Assembly: GCA_018675685.1 (NCBI GenBank)
Contig: JABGXP010000019.1
Coordinates: 1 to 47,056 of the forward strand
DNA length: 47,056 nucleotides
Source: a bacterium
GTDB lineage: Bacteria; Patescibacteriota; Minisyncoccia; Moranbacterales; DUUL01
Direction: 5' to 3'
The notes beneath the pieces were generated by a model. It saw nothing but the letters and a program-made list of their open reading frames with translations, did no database searches and was not told where the DNA came from. Both the position numbers and the translations under genes were made by a program. Positions 8,845 through 16,119 of this stretch are shown piece after piece (the first letter of the stretch is position 1; each line of letters opens with the position of its first letter).

Positions 8845-10197
8845 ATGTCAATGAATATGCATCAAAAAGACCAAATAGGAGCAACATTAATAATATTTTT
8901 GGTTACACTTTTTGTAGTGATATTACCCTTTTTAAATCTATCGTTCTTACTCACTAGCCTTTTATTTTTAACTTTTTTTGCATTTATAATTCTCCAGATT
9001 AATTTAAGATGGGGGTTTTTCCTTTTTTTAATCCTACGCCCAATCTTGGATTTTTCATCAGAAATGCCTCTTTTCGAAGTTGGAAAAATCTCAATTAATC
9101 TTGCGTCTCTTTTGGGGGTGATGATTATATCCACAACGCTTCTTAGGATTCCTAGTAACATGGCATTGCTCAAAAAGGCTCCTTTGTTGAAGTATTGGCT
9201 AGGATTTACTTTAATTTTAATCTTAGGAACTGCAATCTCATTCAACAAAACCACGAGTATCTCTGAATTAATCAGGATGCTGACGATATTTTCATTTTTT
9301 ATTCTTGGGTTTATTGTAACTAGAACCAAAAAAGATGCTTTTCAAATAGCAAAAGTGATTCTTATTTCAACCATGATTCCACTTTTAGTTGCTCTTTATC
9401 AATTAATTACCGATTCGGGCTTAACATTGTCATATCAAGACGTGCCTAATCGACTTTTTGGAACATTTGCTCACCCTAACCTCTTCGCTTTTTCATTAAC
9501 ATTTTCAATTGCTCTTTCTTTAGTAATGTTTCTTGTTTCCAAGAAAAGTTCCCGAAAATGGTTCTATGGGTTACTCCTTTTAGTTTTTACTTTTTTTCTT
9601 GCACAAACATACACTCGTGGTGCTTGGATTCTTTTTGTATTTATGATTCTTAGTGCTGGCTTTTTAAAATTGCACAAACTACTAGTCTTTTTTGTTGTAA
9701 TATTTTTTGCTTTATATATGATAGCCGAACCAGTTAAGGACAGAGTTAATTCAATCACTACACTCTCGCCATACAGTTCGATATCTTGGAGATTCAATCT
9801 ATGGCAAGATGCTATTGTTTATGCAAAAGAGGCGCCTCTCTTGGGTCATGGGACTGGGGTTGCTGAAGAACTAATACAGGAAAGACGTGGTTTACAACTT
9901 GGCTCACCTGCGCCACATAATGATTTTTTAAAAATATTATTGGAAAATGGAATCGTTGGTCTTCTTGCTTTTGTAGCAATTTTTGCATCACTATCAAAAA
10001 TATTATTCTCTTATTTCCTGTCCGAGATAAGATCAAAAAAAACCAGTAATTTAAGTTTTCTGGTTTTAATCTTTCTTTGTTTTGCGCTTGGTCTATACGC
10101 GGCTAGTTTTGGAGATAATGTTTTAAAAGCTACTGCCCTTCAATGGTCATTTTGGGCTCAAGCTGGTGGAATCATGGCGATTATCCGCAAAAAGTGA
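8845..10197 (+). CDS. O-antigen ligase/polymerase family membrane protein (450 aa)
   Basis: A polytopic membrane protein with roughly twelve hydrophobic segments. The Wzy_C region has APLLGHGTGVAEELIQERRG followed by PHNDFLKILLENGIVGLLAF; the PHNxxL motif is strongly conserved in O-antigen ligases and polymerases. An external loop arginine is also present (YTRGAWILF). It would act on undecaprenyl-linked glycans outside the membrane. It is transcribed alone, divergent from the glycosyltransferase operon, and converges with the acyltransferase gene at 10214. No clear ribosome binding site precedes the ATG; further in-frame ATGs occur four and six codons in. It is the second member of its family in the locus. 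Confidence 0.85.
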   Translation: MSMNMHQKDQIGATLIIFLVTLFVVILPFLNLSFLLTSLLFLTFFAFIILQINLRWGFFLFLILRPILDFSSEMPLFEVGKISINLASLLGVMIISTTLLRIPSNMALLKKAPLLKYWLGFTLILILGTAISFNKTTSISELIRMLTIFSFFILGFIVTRTKKDAFQIAKVILISTMIPLLVALYQLITDSGLTLSYQDVPNRLFGTFAHPNLFAFSLTFSIALSLVMFLVSKKSSRKWFYGLLLLVFTFFLAQTYTRGAWILFVFMILSAGFLKLHKLLVFFVVIFFALYMIAEPVKDRVNSITTLSPYSSISWRFNLWQDAIVYAKEAPLLGHGTGVAEELIQERRGLQLGSPAPHNDFLKILLENGIVGLLAFVAIFASLSKILFSYFLSEIRSKKTSNLSFLVLIFLCFALGLYAASFGDNVLKATALQWSFWAQAGGIMAIIRKK

Positions 10198-10213
10198 TGC
10201 CTATGCTTATAAA

Positions 10214-11272
10214 TTAGCACTTACTTTTGAGCGCTCTTTTAACCGTTCTTTTGCAAAACAATAGCACCCTCCACAGCAAACAAACCGCCTTACTTTTTGA
10301 AAAATAGAAGTTATATTGTTTCAGAAGTTGATTCCCAAACTCACGTTTCCAACGACTATCACCAACAGAAAAATCAACCAATCTAATTCCCAGGCTCTGC
10401 AAATGTCGCAAGGTGTGAAAGACTAGAATATTTCCTGGTGTTATTTTTCCAAATTCAGAAACAAAGGCAGAGTTTGTAATCAGGAAAGTTTCTTTGGAAA
10501 AAATACCAAAAAGATATGCGATCTCTTGATCATCTTTCTTTAAAAAAGCTATTCCTACATTTTCATTGTTGTTTTTTATCCAAGAAGCATAGACTTTCCT
10601 TGTGATCTCTCTCCCAAAGAGGGATATTTTTTTCTTTCCTTTCCAGCTTTTATCCTCAATTGCAATCATTTTTTCAAAATCAGCAGTTTCGCTTTTTCTA
10701 TGAAATTCAAATTCAACTAAAGGTTCTGATTTGGTGAGCTTCTTTTTGAATTTCTTTTTTGTTTTTTTACTCATATTTTCAAAAAGGTCTCTCCCGAGAA
10801 CTAATCTTGGACTTTTGCAAGAAAACTCAAAAGAACAGTTCTTAATGATACTTTTATCGCCAGACATAAATAAATTCAAATGTCTTGCTTCTATTTCTGC
10901 TAAAAAAAGATTTTCTTCTTCCGTAACACTCTTTATTATCGTCTCCAAGATTCTTGGGTCACCAACCTTTAAACACAAAGATGAACGATCAATTGAACCG
11001 CCAAAGTTATCTGCGCACATCAACACCTTGACTGCAAACTTTCTACCCCAGACAAGTGGAAGTACGGCAACTAACTCTTTTTTTCTATAACAAAAAAAGA
11101 CTATATATTCTTCCAGAGAAGCAGTCTCCAAAAAAGACATAAAGTATGTCGGAGAATTGAAAAAATGCACATCATCTGTTTCATCCCACAATCTTTGCCA
11201 CTCTTCAAGTTGCAATTTCTCAAGTTTTTTAACTTTTTTGACTTGATATTCTTTCAAAAAATTGATATACAT
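10214..11272 (-). CDS. FemAB/CelD-type GNAT acyltransferase (352 aa)
   Basis: The fold is the double-GNAT family (PF13480-like). In order: WQRLWDETDDVHFFNSPTYF near the N-terminus, the acceptor strand region (LVAVLPLVWG), a basic linker of lysines (~165-180), and the signature C-terminal part GNILVFHTLRHLQSLGIRLV then DFSVGDSRWKREFGNQ. Relatives make peptidoglycan cross-bridges from aminoacyl-tRNA (FemAB) or acylate exopolysaccharide (CelD/BcsL). Next to a glycan locus, acylation of polysaccharide or of peptidoglycan are both reasonable. It has its own near-consensus promoter and is cytoplasmic, with no signal peptide. Confidence 0.82.
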   Translation of the reverse strand: MYINFLKEYQVKKVKKLEKLQLEEWQRLWDETDDVHFFNSPTYFMSFLETASLEEYIVFFCYRKKELVAVLPLVWGRKFAVKVLMCADNFGGSIDRSSLCLKVGDPRILETIIKSVTEEENLFLAEIEARHLNLFMSGDKSIIKNCSFEFSCKSPRLVLGRDLFENMSKKTKKKFKKKLTKSEPLVEFEFHRKSETADFEKMIAIEDKSWKGKKKISLFGREITRKVYASWIKNNNENVGIAFLKKDDQEIAYLFGIFSKETFLITNSAFVSEFGKITPGNILVFHTLRHLQSLGIRLVDFSVGDSRWKREFGNQLLKQYNFYFSKSKAVCLLWRVLLFCKRTVKRALKSKC

Positions 11273-11320: not shown

Positions 11321-11380
11321 TAGGAAGCCGCTCTTGAAAACCTCCACGACCCCTTGGTAAAATATTTTCAAATAAAGTTT

Positions 11381-11415
11381 AAAGAGGCAATGTTATAATA
11401 TAACATTGCCTCTTT
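11381..11415 (-). terminator. Strong intrinsic terminator ending the secreted-protein island
   Basis: A perfect 16-bp stem (AAAGAGGCAATGTTAT at 11381-11396 against 11400-11415) with a 3-nt loop. On the minus strand it is followed by TTTAAACTTTATTTG. A smaller hairpin (CTGTTC/GAACAG, 11417-11432) sits just upstream in the transcript. The region 11433-11569 is the 3' untranslated part of the LysM-like gene; I see no gene in it. Confidence 0.82.
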
Positions 11416-11569
11416 GCTGTTCTCTTGAACAGTTGATTTTACTTTCGTCAGACATCGTCTAACTTTTTTCTTAGTCAGACTCAGCCTGATATTTGTGGAG
11501 CAAAAAACAAATTTGTGCATAAGCACGAGTTTTATGATTGCTATCTCACAGTTATCAGACGAAGGGACT

Positions 11570-12574
11570 TTAGTTGTCAGTATCCTTTTCACTGTTTTTC
11601 CCTTGATCTCCATTGAGTGCACCAGCATTGGTGTTCTCCGGGGATATTTCCTGAGAATCTGTCTCAAGGACCTCTTCTTCGTGTTCTTCAGCCTCAATCG
11701 GTTTCTCTTGTTTCTCTTTTTTTCTGAAGAATAGAGCTTTAACGATCAGGAAAAGAACGATAATAACTATAACACCACCCAGAAGGTACAGAAAACCCTT
11801 AAGGTAGTCAATACTTCCTTCTAAAGTTTTTCCTAAAGCCTCCATTGCTGTAAGCTTCTCTTTCTGCTCGACGATTGTCTCATTGGCAACAACTAATTTT
11901 CCTTCGAGGTTGCCGATGCGAGTATTTCGATCCTCAATCACGCCTTTCAACTTGGTGACTTTTCCGTTCAGAGCAGTAATGATCTGACTGGAAGATGTAA
12001 GATCTTCTCTTACATTTGCCAATTCTTCGGAAAGTTTCGTAACTTCAACTTGCCTTTTTCTCAACTTGCCTTTGAGGATCTTATTGGATTTTTCCGCAAC
12101 TCTTAATCTCTTTTGAAGCTTTGCAACTTCAAAAGCATTGAGAATTAGGTCCTTTGCGATCATCTTTGTGGGAATGTAAAACACAAACCCCGGTTTGAGA
12201 CTTTTACAAGCTTCCATTGTCAGCCCATTACCGGCAACAATTTGGCGAATTTTTCTAAGACCAGCCCCGGAAACTACATTGGCAATATCGCCGATGGTGT
12301 CACCCGAGGAGTCATTGGTCAATTTCAGAGCGTGAAGATCGGTTGTTCCAAAATTCTTTGAAATGTTTTTAATCCTTTGAAGTTCGTTGGCATTCCTGGC
12401 TGCTTTCAATTTAGCCCGGACATCTGCCAAAGTAGTGACTTCGGATATCTCTTTTGCCGCCGCAAGCTTCTTCTGAATATCTTCAAGAGATGTATCAGCG
12501 AAAGCTGCAGTCGTCCAAAGAAACATCACCGCAATTGCCATTATAACTGAATAAACAACATTCTTTTTTTCCAT
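11570..12574 (-). CDS. FimV-like protein: signal peptide, LysM-like domain, coiled coil, C-terminal anchor (334 aa)
   Basis: The start at 12574 is set by AAGGAG ten bases upstream; the longer frame to 12640 has no such site. Residues 1-26 are a signal peptide (cleavage near AAFA-D). Residues ~30-70 hold two related helical units (IQKKLAAAKE and VRAKLKAARN). Residues ~89-138 read like a divergent LysM domain: SSGDTIGDIANVVSGAG, then IVAGNGL and LKPGFVFYIPTKM. Residues ~148-258 are a long coiled coil, ~260-282 a transmembrane helix, and the remaining ~50 residues a very acidic tail. LysM domains bind peptidoglycan glycan; LysM plus coiled coil plus one helix is reminiscent of FimV, a polar scaffold, though no TPR or FimV C-domain is seen. 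It is probably co-transcribed with the gene upstream (102-base gap). Confidence 0.72.
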   Translation of the reverse strand: MEKKNVVYSVIMAIAVMFLWTTAAFADTSLEDIQKKLAAAKEISEVTTLADVRAKLKAARNANELQRIKNISKNFGTTDLHALKLTNDSSGDTIGDIANVVSGAGLRKIRQIVAGNGLTMEACKSLKPGFVFYIPTKMIAKDLILNAFEVAKLQKRLRVAEKSNKILKGKLRKRQVEVTKLSEELANVREDLTSSSQIITALNGKVTKLKGVIEDRNTRIGNLEGKLVVANETIVEQKEKLTAMEALGKTLEGSIDYLKGFLYLLGGVIVIIVLFLIVKALFFRKKEKQEKPIEAEEHEEEVLETDSQEISPENTNAGALNGDQGKNSEKDTDN

Positions 12575-12588
12575 TGTTTCTATTCTCC

Positions 12589-12663
12589 TTTCCCTTATGG
12601 GAAATTGCTGATTCTTATGATTGTTGAATCTCCCTCCCATCTAAATCAAATCTTAAATGGGAG
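12589..12663 (-). promoter_or_regulatory. Two RNA hairpins between secreted-protein genes, one abutting the ribosome binding site
   Basis: Hairpin A (12634-12663) has 10-bp arms with one G-U pair (CTCCCATTTA/TAGATGGGAG) and lies 14 nt after the stop of the upstream gene, without a U tract. Hairpin B (12589-12604) is a perfect TTTCCC-ATAA-GGGAAA whose last two bases are the first two of the AAGGAG site. They could set relative expression of the two cistrons or protect mRNA ends; this is inference. Confidence 0.5.
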
Positions 12664-12676
12664 TTCGGTAAATGTG

Positions 12677-14074
12677 TTACCGTAGGTTAGCCGCTTTCAG
12701 TTTCGAACTATACGCTTCAAGACTTACGAGATTATTGATATGGTGCCTTTGCATTGCTCCTTCAACCTTAGAAAGGTTGTCGAAATATGCTTTGGAAAAT
12801 TCCGCATCAGAAATCAATTGCTTATCTCTGGCGCGCTTGACAACATTAGCTCTTTCAAACCATGCTAATGCAATGCCTAACTGAGCCATTTCAAGTTTTT
12901 CGCCCTTAACGTTGTCTCTGGTAGCCTGGTTTAAATGAGCCTGGAAAACACTCAGTGCTTCCAAATCAGTTCTTTCAGAAGAAAGATACTTTTCTAATTC
13001 AACTTCAGCTACTTGCAATCTTGTTACACCATTCGGATCAGGTACTGCATTTGCGCACATCGCGAGAGTTAAATACTCGTCTCTCTTGAGTTTACTAATA
13101 ACAGAAACTTTTTCCTTAGGCTCTGGTTGAACGATTTTTGCTTTATCAGCAACAACTTTTTGCTTTTCTGTAGAGCTTAGAGCAAGAAACGTTTTCTTGA
13201 AGTCTATGACTTTAACAAGCGCAACGGAAAGAAAGGGGTTAGCCTTAAGTCCATTACTTCCACTAGTTCCACTGAATGCAGAACCAATGCTACCACCAAG
13301 TGGCAAAGCACTGCTACCTGAAAGGCTGAGTGCACCTGCAAGCAAGGCTCCAATGTTCGCGCCTTTTGCTTCTGTGCCAAAAAGAACTTCAGCACCTTCA
13401 CCAGTTGGAACGAAGAAATTCGCTCCGAGTTTCATGGCTGCTTCTGAAATCATCATCCCTAAATCATCCGAGGAAATGTTTTCAAGCTTCAAGCTTTTGT
13501 ACCATTTCTTAAACCCTTCACGAGTTTGGAAGGTGATACTGCCCATTGCCAAATAGTCAGTGCCCTTTATTGCGCGAGCATCTGGATATTTAGCATAGGG
13601 ACGAACAGCGTTTGTTGCTGGAAGGTCATAGAGCACAACCACATTGGCAGTTCTCATCAACATCTTCCTTGCTTTCGAAAAACCATCAATTAATTTCTTT
13701 TTCTCATACTTGTCTTCAACGAGCTTAGATTTATTCCCGAAATAAACCGGGATCATTTCTCTCGTGATAACATTAGGTAACGCCAAGTAAACTCTTTTGG
13801 AGTCTTTTAAGCTCCAGAGACTACCTTTTGTTACAGGAATATTTGGTGTTCCAGGAAACATTCCTTCGAATGCTGGCATATAGGCGCTGCCCATATACTT
13901 ATCTTTACCATCTCCACCGCCACCGTTTAATACAGTGACATTAATCTCATTTTCCTGACCAACTTCAACCTCAACCTGTGAGGCTCCATTGTCTTCTGCA
14001 AAAGAAATCGAGGCAAATGCCAACGAAATCGCCATTACCATCAAAACAACAATCTTTCCCATTCTTTTCTTCAT
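12677..14074 (-). CDS. Secreted protein of unknown function (465 aa)
   Basis: The start at 14074 is chosen because AAGGAG sits eight bases before it and the protein then begins with a classical signal peptide (MKKRMGK, hydrophobic stretch, cleavage near SFA-ED, residue 26). After a Gly-rich piece (NGGGGDGKDKYMG) comes a mixed alpha/beta region (~75-215, including VVVLYDLPATNAVRPY and EAAMKLGANFFVPTG). A Gly/Ser/Ala-rich low-complexity segment follows (~220-260), then a helical C-terminal half rich in Lys, Glu and Ala. No membrane anchor or known domain is recognised. Codon and base use look richer in G+C than the flanking polysaccharide genes. The near-perfect promoter and strong site suggest high expression. 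Surface or matrix protein is a guess from secretion and context. Confidence 0.75.
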   Translation of the reverse strand: MKKRMGKIVVLMVMAISLAFASISFAEDNGASQVEVEVGQENEINVTVLNGGGGDGKDKYMGSAYMPAFEGMFPGTPNIPVTKGSLWSLKDSKRVYLALPNVITREMIPVYFGNKSKLVEDKYEKKKLIDGFSKARKMLMRTANVVVLYDLPATNAVRPYAKYPDARAIKGTDYLAMGSITFQTREGFKKWYKSLKLENISSDDLGMMISEAAMKLGANFFVPTGEGAEVLFGTEAKGANIGALLAGALSLSGSSALPLGGSIGSAFSGTSGSNGLKANPFLSVALVKVIDFKKTFLALSSTEKQKVVADKAKIVQPEPKEKVSVISKLKRDEYLTLAMCANAVPDPNGVTRLQVAEVELEKYLSSERTDLEALSVFQAHLNQATRDNVKGEKLEMAQLGIALAWFERANVVKRARDKQLISDAEFSKAYFDNLSKVEGAMQRHHINNLVSLEAYSSKLKAANLR

Positions 14075-14166
14075 AACCGTTTCTCCTTGTGGTTTTGTTA
14101 CACACATTTAGTGCGCAACTATTTGTTTGCTATTAAATTGACAAGCTACTGTTAAATAAACTGTTC

Positions 14167-14196
14167 ATCACTTATTGCACGAATGTAATAAGTGAT
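14167..14196 (-). promoter_or_regulatory. Hairpin in the long 5' leader of the 465-aa secreted protein gene
   Basis: Ten-base perfect arms (ATCACTTATT/AATAAGTGAT) around a 10-nt centre whose outer bases extend the stem with a G-U pair. It lies mid-way in a leader of about 205 nt (14075-14281) that holds no gene. I recognise no riboswitch class; it may stabilise the mRNA. Confidence 0.45.
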
Positions 14197-14287
14197 AAAT
14201 TGGGTTATTCACTGCTATGAAAGTTCTTTGACTAACTTGACTGACTCAAATTCTCTTATCTTGTTTAAATATTAATCTTGATTTCCT

Positions 14288-14316
14288 ATTATACTCTTTT
14301 TTTAGAGTTTTGTCAA
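14288..14316 (-). promoter_or_regulatory. Perfect-consensus sigma70 promoter
   Basis: On the minus strand TTGACA (14311-14316), a 17-nt spacer and TATAAT (14288-14293) match both consensus hexamers exactly. It drives the secreted-protein gene at 14074 and probably the LysM-like gene after it. The -35 begins four bases past the terminator stem of the preceding gene. Confidence 0.88.
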
Positions 14317-14320
14317 GAGA

Positions 14321-14355
14321 AAACCTGGAATAGTAAAGTTCACTATTCCAGGTTT
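14321..14355 (-). terminator. Intrinsic terminator after the small secreted-protein gene
   Basis: A perfect 14-bp stem (AAACCTGGAATAGT, 14321-14334, against 14342-14355) with a 7-nt loop, about 50 bases past the stop. The U-run is short (stem end TTT plus TCTCTT), and it merges directly into the -35 of the next promoter. Confidence 0.75.
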
Positions 14356-14405
14356 CTTTGGTCAAATGACCACTTTTATAATCTTGGCATAAATGCCGGC
14401 AAATA

Positions 14406-15071
14406 TTATGGTGCAGGATTCACATTAATCTTTAAGGTTCCGAGCATCTGACTCTGTTGTGTTGTCATTATACCCGCGCCATTGTCGGTTGTCTGATATG
14501 AATTGTTCAGCACCTGCGAGTCGAGAGACCCAATAGTTCCAGGCGTTGCACATACCAGACCCGCCATATTAATTCCAGTTTGCATATTTGCAGTGAGACC
14601 TGTGTCCCAGGTGTCAGCAGTGAGATTGGCTCTCATATGATTGTCTGAAAATACACGACCGCCTTCAAGGCCACCGTTCTCAGCCAGTGTATCAAGGCTT
14701 GCAGTGGTAACATCCTGAATTTTAATTCCGCCAGTTCCGTCAGCACGTTCCTTTAGGATTTCCAAGCTCTGGGATGCAACATTAGTGATCGCCGCTGTTC
14801 CAATAGTTGGTGCGCCGGCGAGAGTTCCAATTTCCAGACTGGTGCATCCTTCGCCCCAAACCTGATTGAGACTATCAATATTGGTCTCTCCCCAGAGAGA
14901 TCCATCATTGAAACCGTTAACAAATCCACCATTACATTCGCCATCAGGGCATTCAAATGAGGTGATTGGTTCGGGTTCGGGACAATTATCCGGGCAATCT
15001 GCCATGGCAATTGTTCCGAAAGTCATCATGATCGAAAGTGTCATTGCGAGTGTTACGAAGAGCTTTTTCAT
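14406..15071 (-). CDS. Small secreted cysteine-containing protein (221 aa)
   Basis: An AAGGAG site nine bases before the ATG sets the start. The signal peptide ends near IAMA (residue 23). The mature N-terminus has a Cys/Pro-rich segment with Cys at 26, 30, 41 and 46 (DCPDNCPEPEP, then CPDGEC), then another at 76 and one near 174 (LVCATPG). The Asp at -1 excludes a lipobox. The rest is rich in Gly, Thr, Asn and Ala with alternating beta-like stretches (IGTLAGAPTIGTAAITN), looking like a surface or fibre-type protein. No known family recognised. It has its own promoter and terminator and is the first gene of the higher-G+C island. Confidence 0.75.
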   Translation of the reverse strand: MKKLFVTLAMTLSIMMTFGTIAMADCPDNCPEPEPITSFECPDGECNGGFVNGFNDGSLWGETNIDSLNQVWGEGCTSLEIGTLAGAPTIGTAAITNVASQSLEILKERADGTGGIKIQDVTTASLDTLAENGGLEGGRVFSDNHMRANLTADTWDTGLTANMQTGINMAGLVCATPGTIGSLDSQVLNNSYQTTDNGAGIMTTQQSQMLGTLKINVNPAP

Positions 15072-15227
15072 TGTTTCTTTCTCCTTGTTTGGAAAATAAT
15101 GTTTTGATAGCTGGAAAATCCTGCTACCGACTTAGTTGTAAAACAATCTTCTGCGTCCCTTTGGTTCCTCCTTTTTATTCTTCCTTTCGTCAGAATATTT
15201 GAGATTATAAAAATTTGAGAGTACTTT

Positions 15228-15278
15228 GAAACGATAACCGTTTCTGCATCCGAAATTTTTTTAGTCTCTTTCGGACGC
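15228..15278 (-). promoter_or_regulatory. Structured 5' leader of the small secreted-protein gene
   Basis: The ~277-nt leader (15072-15348) holds no convincing gene. It contains GCGTCCGAAA/TTTCGGATGC (10 bp with one G-U pair, 15246-15278), and immediately after in the transcript GAAACG-GTTAT-CGTTTC (15228-15244). No known riboswitch class recognised. Confidence 0.45.
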
Positions 15279-15354
15279 AAAATTAATATCAATTCATTTT
15301 CAATAATTTACTATGCAACGAATAATCTTGAAGGTCAATCTTACTCGTTATCAC

Positions 15355-15383
15355 AACATAGCACGATTGTAATTATTTGTCAA
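15355..15383 (-). promoter_or_regulatory. Promoter for the small secreted-protein gene
   Basis: On the minus strand TTGACA (15378-15383), 17-nt spacer, TATGTT (15355-15360). The -35 is embedded in the last codons of the upstream Wzz-like gene, whose stop codon is at 15373-15375. Confidence 0.7.
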
Positions 15384-16044
15384 GTTCTTTCATTGTTTTA
15401 ATTTCCAATAAATTGCTCTTTTTTTTCTTGAAAATATTCAAATCATTTTCAGGTGCTGGAAAAATAACAATATAAGCAATTGCTGTCCCGAGCCCTGCTA
15501 TAAAAGCGATTGTAAAGTTAAGCTTTGTATTTGGAGACGTCAAGCCAATGATTGAAGAATCTACGATTTTCAATCTTACATTTTCACCACTATGAAATCT
15601 TGTATGTCTGTTTTTAAGAACTTTAAAGATTCTAACCGAAATATTTTCAGCTTGTTTCATATTAGAATGCTTCACTGTTATTTCAATCATGCCAGAATCA
15701 CCAGCGCTTGAAGCACTGACAACGCTTTTCCATTTTTTTGCGACCTGATCAATTTCTGGTTTTTTTTCAAAATACCCCCTATTAACGCCAAACTCTTCTT
15801 TTGCAACCTCATCATAAAAAGAATATGTTGTAATAACTTCTGCCAGAATTTCACTTATATATGTCCTAGATCTTGCAATCGCATATGGATCAACATCTCT
15901 ATTAAACTTTGGTATGACTAAGACTTTTGATTTAGCACTATACCTAACAGGTTGTAAGAGGGTAAAAATAGTTGCTACAAGCAAAAAAACCAGTGATATC
16001 ACTATAATTGTCTGTCTCTTACTTATAATAAATTTTAAATCCAT
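15373..16044 (-). CDS. Wzz-type chain-length determinant protein (223 aa)
   Basis: Two transmembrane helices (residues ~12-30 and ~178-197) flank an external domain, as in polysaccharide co-polymerases. The first helix is followed by QPVRYSAKSKVLVIPKF, the usual beta strand after Wzz helix 1, and the second is preceded by a Pro-containing segment (SPNTKLNF). It would set glycan chain length with a Wzy polymerase. There is no fused or adjacent tyrosine kinase. It has its own promoter. The short C-terminal cytoplasmic tail is basic (KKKKSN). Confidence 0.8.
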   Translation of the reverse strand: MDLKFIISKRQTIIVISLVFLLVATIFTLLQPVRYSAKSKVLVIPKFNRDVDPYAIARSRTYISEILAEVITTYSFYDEVAKEEFGVNRGYFEKKPEIDQVAKKWKSVVSASSAGDSGMIEITVKHSNMKQAENISVRIFKVLKNRHTRFHSGENVRLKIVDSSIIGLTSPNTKLNFTIAFIAGLGTAIAYIVIFPAPENDLNIFKKKKSNLLEIKTMKELDK

Positions 16045-16090: not shown

Positions 16091-16119
16091 ATAATAATAC
16101 ATAAAGATACTTTTGTCAA
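16091..16119 (-). promoter_or_regulatory. Promoter for the 223-aa Wzz-like gene
   Basis: On the minus strand TTGACA (16114-16119), 17-nt spacer, TATTAT (16091-16096), about 40 nt before the ATG at 16044. One mismatch to consensus. Confidence 0.75.

Follow-up and report, generated by a model that had tools for sequence, protein, structure and literature searches.

Three adjacent minus-strand genes within a surface-polysaccharide locus, here called A, B, and C, differ from their surroundings in base composition and carry strong expression signals. They raise the question of whether they form a transferred island, as the initial annotation proposed, or an inherited part of the cell envelope of this lineage. 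The window, that is, the whole stretch of 47,056 nucleotides analyzed, is the complete contig C10 of a 1.05-Mb genome (G000) that is 96% complete. Its relatives are the Candidatus Moranbacteria and Patescibacteria records UBA2772, CSMAG_106, and RIFCSPHIGHO2_02_FULL_40_12b; G001 is a congener of the source genome, G007 belongs to another genus, and G020 to another family. The three genes lie between genes for a GNAT/FemAB-like protein (PF13480; 10214-11272) and a Wzz-like chain-length protein (15373-16044), both on the minus strand. The congener has both neighbors, and G007 has the first. A serine recombinase gene adjoins a tRNA at the contig start (161-1527), possibly the boundary of an integrated element. 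In a limited literature collection, neither the surface proteins of Moranbacteria nor the use of Shine-Dalgarno (SD) ribosome binding sites in Patescibacteria turned up.

The annotation of three secreted minus-strand proteins of 221, 465, and 334 aa is borne out by the open reading frames and by clear Sec signal peptides in all three (AMA↓D in A, SFA↓E in B, AFA↓D in C). Gene A (14406-15071) encodes an acidic protein with a mature net charge of about -17 and six Cys, half of whose residues are G, S, T, N, Q, or A. We found no match to it in Pfam, NCBIfam, or PHROGs, and its structure model (pLDDT 30) is too poor for use. The product of gene B (12677-14074) has a disordered N-terminal part, an alpha/beta middle with a Gly-rich insert, and a helical C-terminal domain (about residues 350-465). 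Searches of Pfam, NCBIfam, PHROGs, PDB, and phages yielded nothing usable for B, and its structure model (pLDDT 48) has no PDB fold match at E ≤ 0.001. None of the three proteins has a PEP-CTERM motif (Pfam, NCBIfam) or, on inspection of the sequences, an LPxTG-like sortase signal: A ends in NVNPAP and B in AANLR, and C has a transmembrane segment and an acidic tail.

Protein C (11570-12574) consists of a LysM-like segment (about residues 78-150), a coiled coil, one transmembrane segment (near residue 260), and an acidic cytoplasmic tail. Its earlier description as a LysM-like anchored coiled-coil protein thus stands for the anchor and the coiled coil; the window protein has no match to Pfam LysM (PF01476). 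The equivalent segment of the congener protein scores 13.3 bits (E = 0.081) against a curated cut-off of 20.9, and that of a C-like counterpart in G034 reaches 23 bits (E = 7.5e-5). C resembles wall- or membrane-anchored LysM-domain proteins in having the GDT...N...G..(I/Y)IP pattern, a segment of LysM length, export, a coiled coil, and an anchor, and differs from them in lacking the Pfam match. The segment is a plausible candidate for a LysM but a weak one; it is extended and may no longer be canonical.

Perfect AAGGAG ribosome binding sites precede A (15081-15086, spacer 9), B (14083-14088, spacer 8), and C (12585-12590, spacer 10), all on the minus strand and just as first described, at 8-10 nt. 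These are the only three of the 33 window genes with an SD score >4/6. In the congener the sites of B and C are likewise 6/6, and that of A only 4/6. The minus-strand promoter of A (15355-15383) is TTGACA-17-TATGTT, a 10/12 match with an extended -10 (TG), and its congener counterpart scores 11/12, also with an extended -10. That of B (14288-14316, minus strand) is TTGACA-17-TATAAT, a 12/12 match whose hexamers and spacer length are unchanged in the congener. The claim of a consensus or near-consensus promoter with a 17-nt spacer for each gene was too strong, since gene C lacks one. The absence of such signals from most neighbors holds for the SD sites; as to promoters, the adjacent Wzz gene also has one, an 11/12 match (16091-16119).

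Both promoters are followed by long minus-strand leaders. The leader of A (15072-15350, ∼280 nt) has a hairpin, GCGTCCGAAA...TTTCGGATGC, that is kept in the congener, and the leader of B (14075-14283, ∼210 nt) has conserved stretches and a hairpin also kept there. A terminator hairpin with a long perfect stem and a T tail separates A from B (14320-14356, minus strand), and a hairpin of different sequence takes its place in the congener. Another terminator hairpin, with a 16-bp perfect stem, follows C (11381-11415, minus strand). The hairpin between B and C (12634-12663, minus strand) has a counterpart in the congener and no T tail, and of the perfect hairpin terminators first reported only those after A and after C are retained. 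In the congener, tandem TTGACA-17 promoters stand ahead of both A and B (L011:15380-16702).

The arrangement is not confined to one genome. In the congener, A, B, and C follow one another as they do here and have the same flanks, with protein identities of 56%, 62%, and 43%, and this synteny led us to reject assembly error or contamination as the source of the cluster. G007 keeps B, a C-like gene, and the GNAT and polysaccharide genes in order; its Wzz gene, on another contig, has beside it a gene for a secreted protein of 215 aa with weak similarity to A. In G020 a small secreted gene lies ahead of B, and there is no C beside B. Similarity among the A-type proteins is seen between G007 and G020 (z = 5.3) and between the congener and G007 (z = 5.3); the small gene of G020 compared directly with window A is not significant (z = -0.4). 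G034 has, in order, an LPxTG gene, a sortase, a small secreted gene, a B-like gene, and a C-like gene, the B-like gene matching the C-terminal domain of B (E = 1e-6). G406 has a similar, weaker arrangement and is accepted as B-like only tentatively, and weak matches in G093 and G395 were not accepted. A scan of genome contigs by plain sequence returned nothing, and a profile scan recovered the three relatives. B has remote homologs in G007, G020, and G034; the other genomes of a phylum sample of 287, phages, and viral contigs gave no B. Sites of 6/6 also precede the A-slot, B-like, and C-like genes in G007, G020, and G034, and the homologous genes share the raised G+C in G007 and G020. In another family of the order, a small LPxTG-type protein and a sortase are encoded directly upstream of the B-like region (L026:7546-8883, L029:6517-8052).

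The co-occurrence that the initial annotation predicted is found: The congener has A-B-C, G007 has B-C, and G034 has a B-like gene paired with a C-like one. It bears on whether the three proteins belong together. They might instead be unrelated secreted proteins that share a slot without acting together, the site downstream of Wzz being a lineage-specific hot spot for secreted genes. Unrelated small secreted proteins do occur near Wzz-like genes in other family members, A and B are each preceded by a promoter and are separated by a terminator, and the A-like/B pair of G020 is without C. Against this stand the retention of A-B-C in the congener and of B-C in G007, and the same order of small secreted, B-like, and C-like genes in G034. 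We regard a mere shared slot as rather unlikely. The unrelated small secreted proteins are seen at loci L054, L055, and L057, which marks the slot as variable, and two of them, in G005, have perfect SD sites.

As the initial annotation held, base composition is not uniform across the window. Positions 11380-15383 have 40.4% G+C vs 35.6% in the rest of the window, a richness that no more than 0.35% of the window's 4-kb segments reach; of the two 60-nt counts first quoted, 30 and 16, a recount gives 29 and 16. The per-gene values for A, B, and C are 0.47, 0.416, and 0.411, and their codon usage is atypical, with GC3 of 0.41, 0.36, and 0.40 where 0.29-0.30 is expected from the other genes. Codon usage in the stretch correlates with that of ribosomal proteins at r = -0.15, the ribosomal set coming from two overlapping loci so that part of the cluster is counted twice. 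Since this preference is unlike that of ribosomal proteins, the raised G+C is not explained by the usual codon bias of highly expressed genes, and we rejected that bias as the reason for the raised GC3.

The rest of the genome places the SD sites in a wider setting. The 3′ end of the 16S rRNA of G000 has an intact anti-SD, GGATCACCTCCTTTCT, and none of 20 ribosomal-cluster genes has an SD score >4/6. The pattern AAGGAG-N7..10-ATGNNNAAA has 10 matches in the whole genome vs two for the control; besides B and C, it precedes genes for a cytochrome c3-like protein, a PEP-CTERM protein, a small secreted protein, and a TolQ-like protein. The cytochrome c3-like, PEP-CTERM, and small secreted genes, the last adjoining SecA, encode exported proteins, have 42%-43% G+C, and have promoters of 11-12/12 with 17-nt spacers; the TolQ-like gene is the exception. 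The perfect-SD genes of G000 are scattered over the genome and are mostly G+C-rich. For A, B, and C, the insulated island of the initial annotation is a less apt description than the largest cluster within a dispersed class of SD-bearing exported genes.

Just downstream of EF-Tu on contig C5 lie two adjacent exported genes (L074:9091-9804 and 10131-10844), the first with a perfect SD and a PEP-CTERM motif (Pfam E = 2e-7), unexpected in a Patescibacterium. The cytochrome c3-like multihaem protein on contig C3 (L073:9250-9750) has a perfect SD and a TTGACA-17-CATAAT promoter and stands alone among SD-less chromosomal genes. TolQ/TolR-like proteins and a 635-aa membrane protein are encoded by a three-gene cluster on contig C13 with a 6/6 SD each (L075:2440-5587). 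A 56% ortholog of the SecA-side gene in the congener (L040:4778-5167, contig C14) has an in-frame stop near residue 42.

A sample of 197 kb of G000, not selected for SD sites, holds 149 genes. Four of these, each of the exported type, have a perfect ATG-linked SD (4/37 vs 0/112 for the others, P = 0.003); A, B, and C, from the region first singled out, account for three of them. Pooling stretches of G000 and four relatives gives 11/68 vs 0/173 (P = 5e-7), a value that is optimistic because the loci from the relatives had been retrieved for their B homologs and three of the four G000 genes come from that region. The exported type was called by a home-made signal-peptide rule. Contig C20 was left out of these counts because its SD-bearing genes look foreign; if it were included, some non-exported genes would enter the counts as SD-bearing. 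This contig (L088, 8.9 kb) has several cytoplasmic-type genes with perfect SD sites and may be foreign to the genome. Within the sampled stretches, perfect SD sites are found in a small functional subset of genes alongside an intact anti-SD.

How such genes came to be here can be read in more than one way. An ancient acquisition, in ancestral Moranbacteria or through repeated exchange, from an SD-using bacterium, with useful SD sites and promoters kept, would fit the make-up of the dispersed set: Its cytochrome c3-like, PEP-CTERM, and TolQ/TolR-like members belong to families described chiefly in other phyla, most of them diderm. It would also fit the patchy distribution of B-type genes across the order. 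However, no outside homolog of A or B was found, and G+C varies by lineage (0.47 for A in G000, 0.52 for the A-slot gene in G007), so that no single donor composition persists. The chance that this accounts for the genes seems to us about one in five.

Far less probable is the transferred module first proposed, a recently acquired G+C-richer surface cassette with its donor's composition and expression signals: The raised G+C, the atypical codon usage, SD sites alien to the genome's habit, and the great rarity of close homologs would suit it, but the congener has the same slot, order, flanks, and gene G+C (A 47.1% vs 47.0% in the window, B 41.8% vs 41.6%) in surroundings near 31%-33%, and at its divergence of 43%-62% identity synonymous sites must be saturated, yet gene G+C is equal despite the lower background. 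The flanking GNAT and polysaccharide genes are kept in G007 as well, and neither the phylum sample of 287 genomes nor phages nor viral contigs contain a donor. No mobility gene or tRNA adjoins the stretch, the nearest serine recombinase (161-1492) and tRNA (1454-1527) being ∼10 kb away, and a close relative has the genes in the same place; of the usual marks of a transferred island, only the atypical composition is seen. The conserved order, flanks, and G+C in the congener, the diverged versions in other relatives, and the restricted distribution of B together make recent transfer unlikely.

We therefore favor, with some confidence, the reading that A-B-C is a vertically inherited envelope module of one Moranbacteria lineage and belongs to an SD-bearing exported class. 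The raised G+C would then be a long-lived property of the three genes and would not have been left by a recent transfer. A, B, and C would leave the cytoplasm by Sec. C would stay in the membrane, its coiled-coil stalk lifting the LysM-like head into the wall, where the head probably binds wall glycan. A, an extracellular protein that is small, acidic, and quick to evolve, may form an abundant outermost part. B would be its larger exported partner and is probably kept at the surface together with C. High output would follow from the strong promoters for A and for B-C, the long structured leaders, the terminators, and the perfect SD sites, and the cassette may shape the surface together with the polysaccharide. 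The proposal that the genes encode a surface structure fares well as regards export, surface location, strong signals, and co-occurrence, and the surface role itself is plausible.

Exported surface proteins tied to polysaccharide loci are also a feature of the PEP-CTERM/exosortase and sortase/LPxTG systems, from which A, B, and C differ in having neither signal. G000 has genes of these systems itself (a PEP-CTERM protein, and a sortase with a TPATG protein), and a sortase and an LPxTG protein are encoded beside the B-like genes in G034 and G406.

The unexpected part, and the one worth following, is the SD pattern. Flavobacterium johnsoniae is SD-poor with an intact anti-SD, and rpsU is among its few strong-SD genes, translated by ribosomes lacking bS21 (PMC9976891). 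In the bS21 mechanism, the anti-SD is occluded in all but a subpopulation of ribosomes. The likeness lies in a few strong-SD genes within an SD-ignoring genome that has an intact 16S anti-SD, and the difference in that the SD genes here encode exported proteins and not ribosomal protein bS21. The SD class could simply be high-output genes, or it could mark a distinct translation route. A speculative version of the latter, to which we give little weight, is that most Moranbacteria mRNAs are SD-less, that strong SD sites serve a small exported-surface regulon, and that ribosomes with a free anti-SD provide a separate, adjustable route.

These tiny bacteria, most of them uncultured, probably meet their neighbors through surface proteins, hardly any of which can be recognized by similarity. 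If a strong promoter, a perfect SD, raised G+C, and a signal peptide do mark a class, then surface proteins could be listed from genomes alone, and such listing would work even for sequences unlike anything known. It also makes testable the idea that an SD-poor lineage reserves SD-led translation for its exported proteins.
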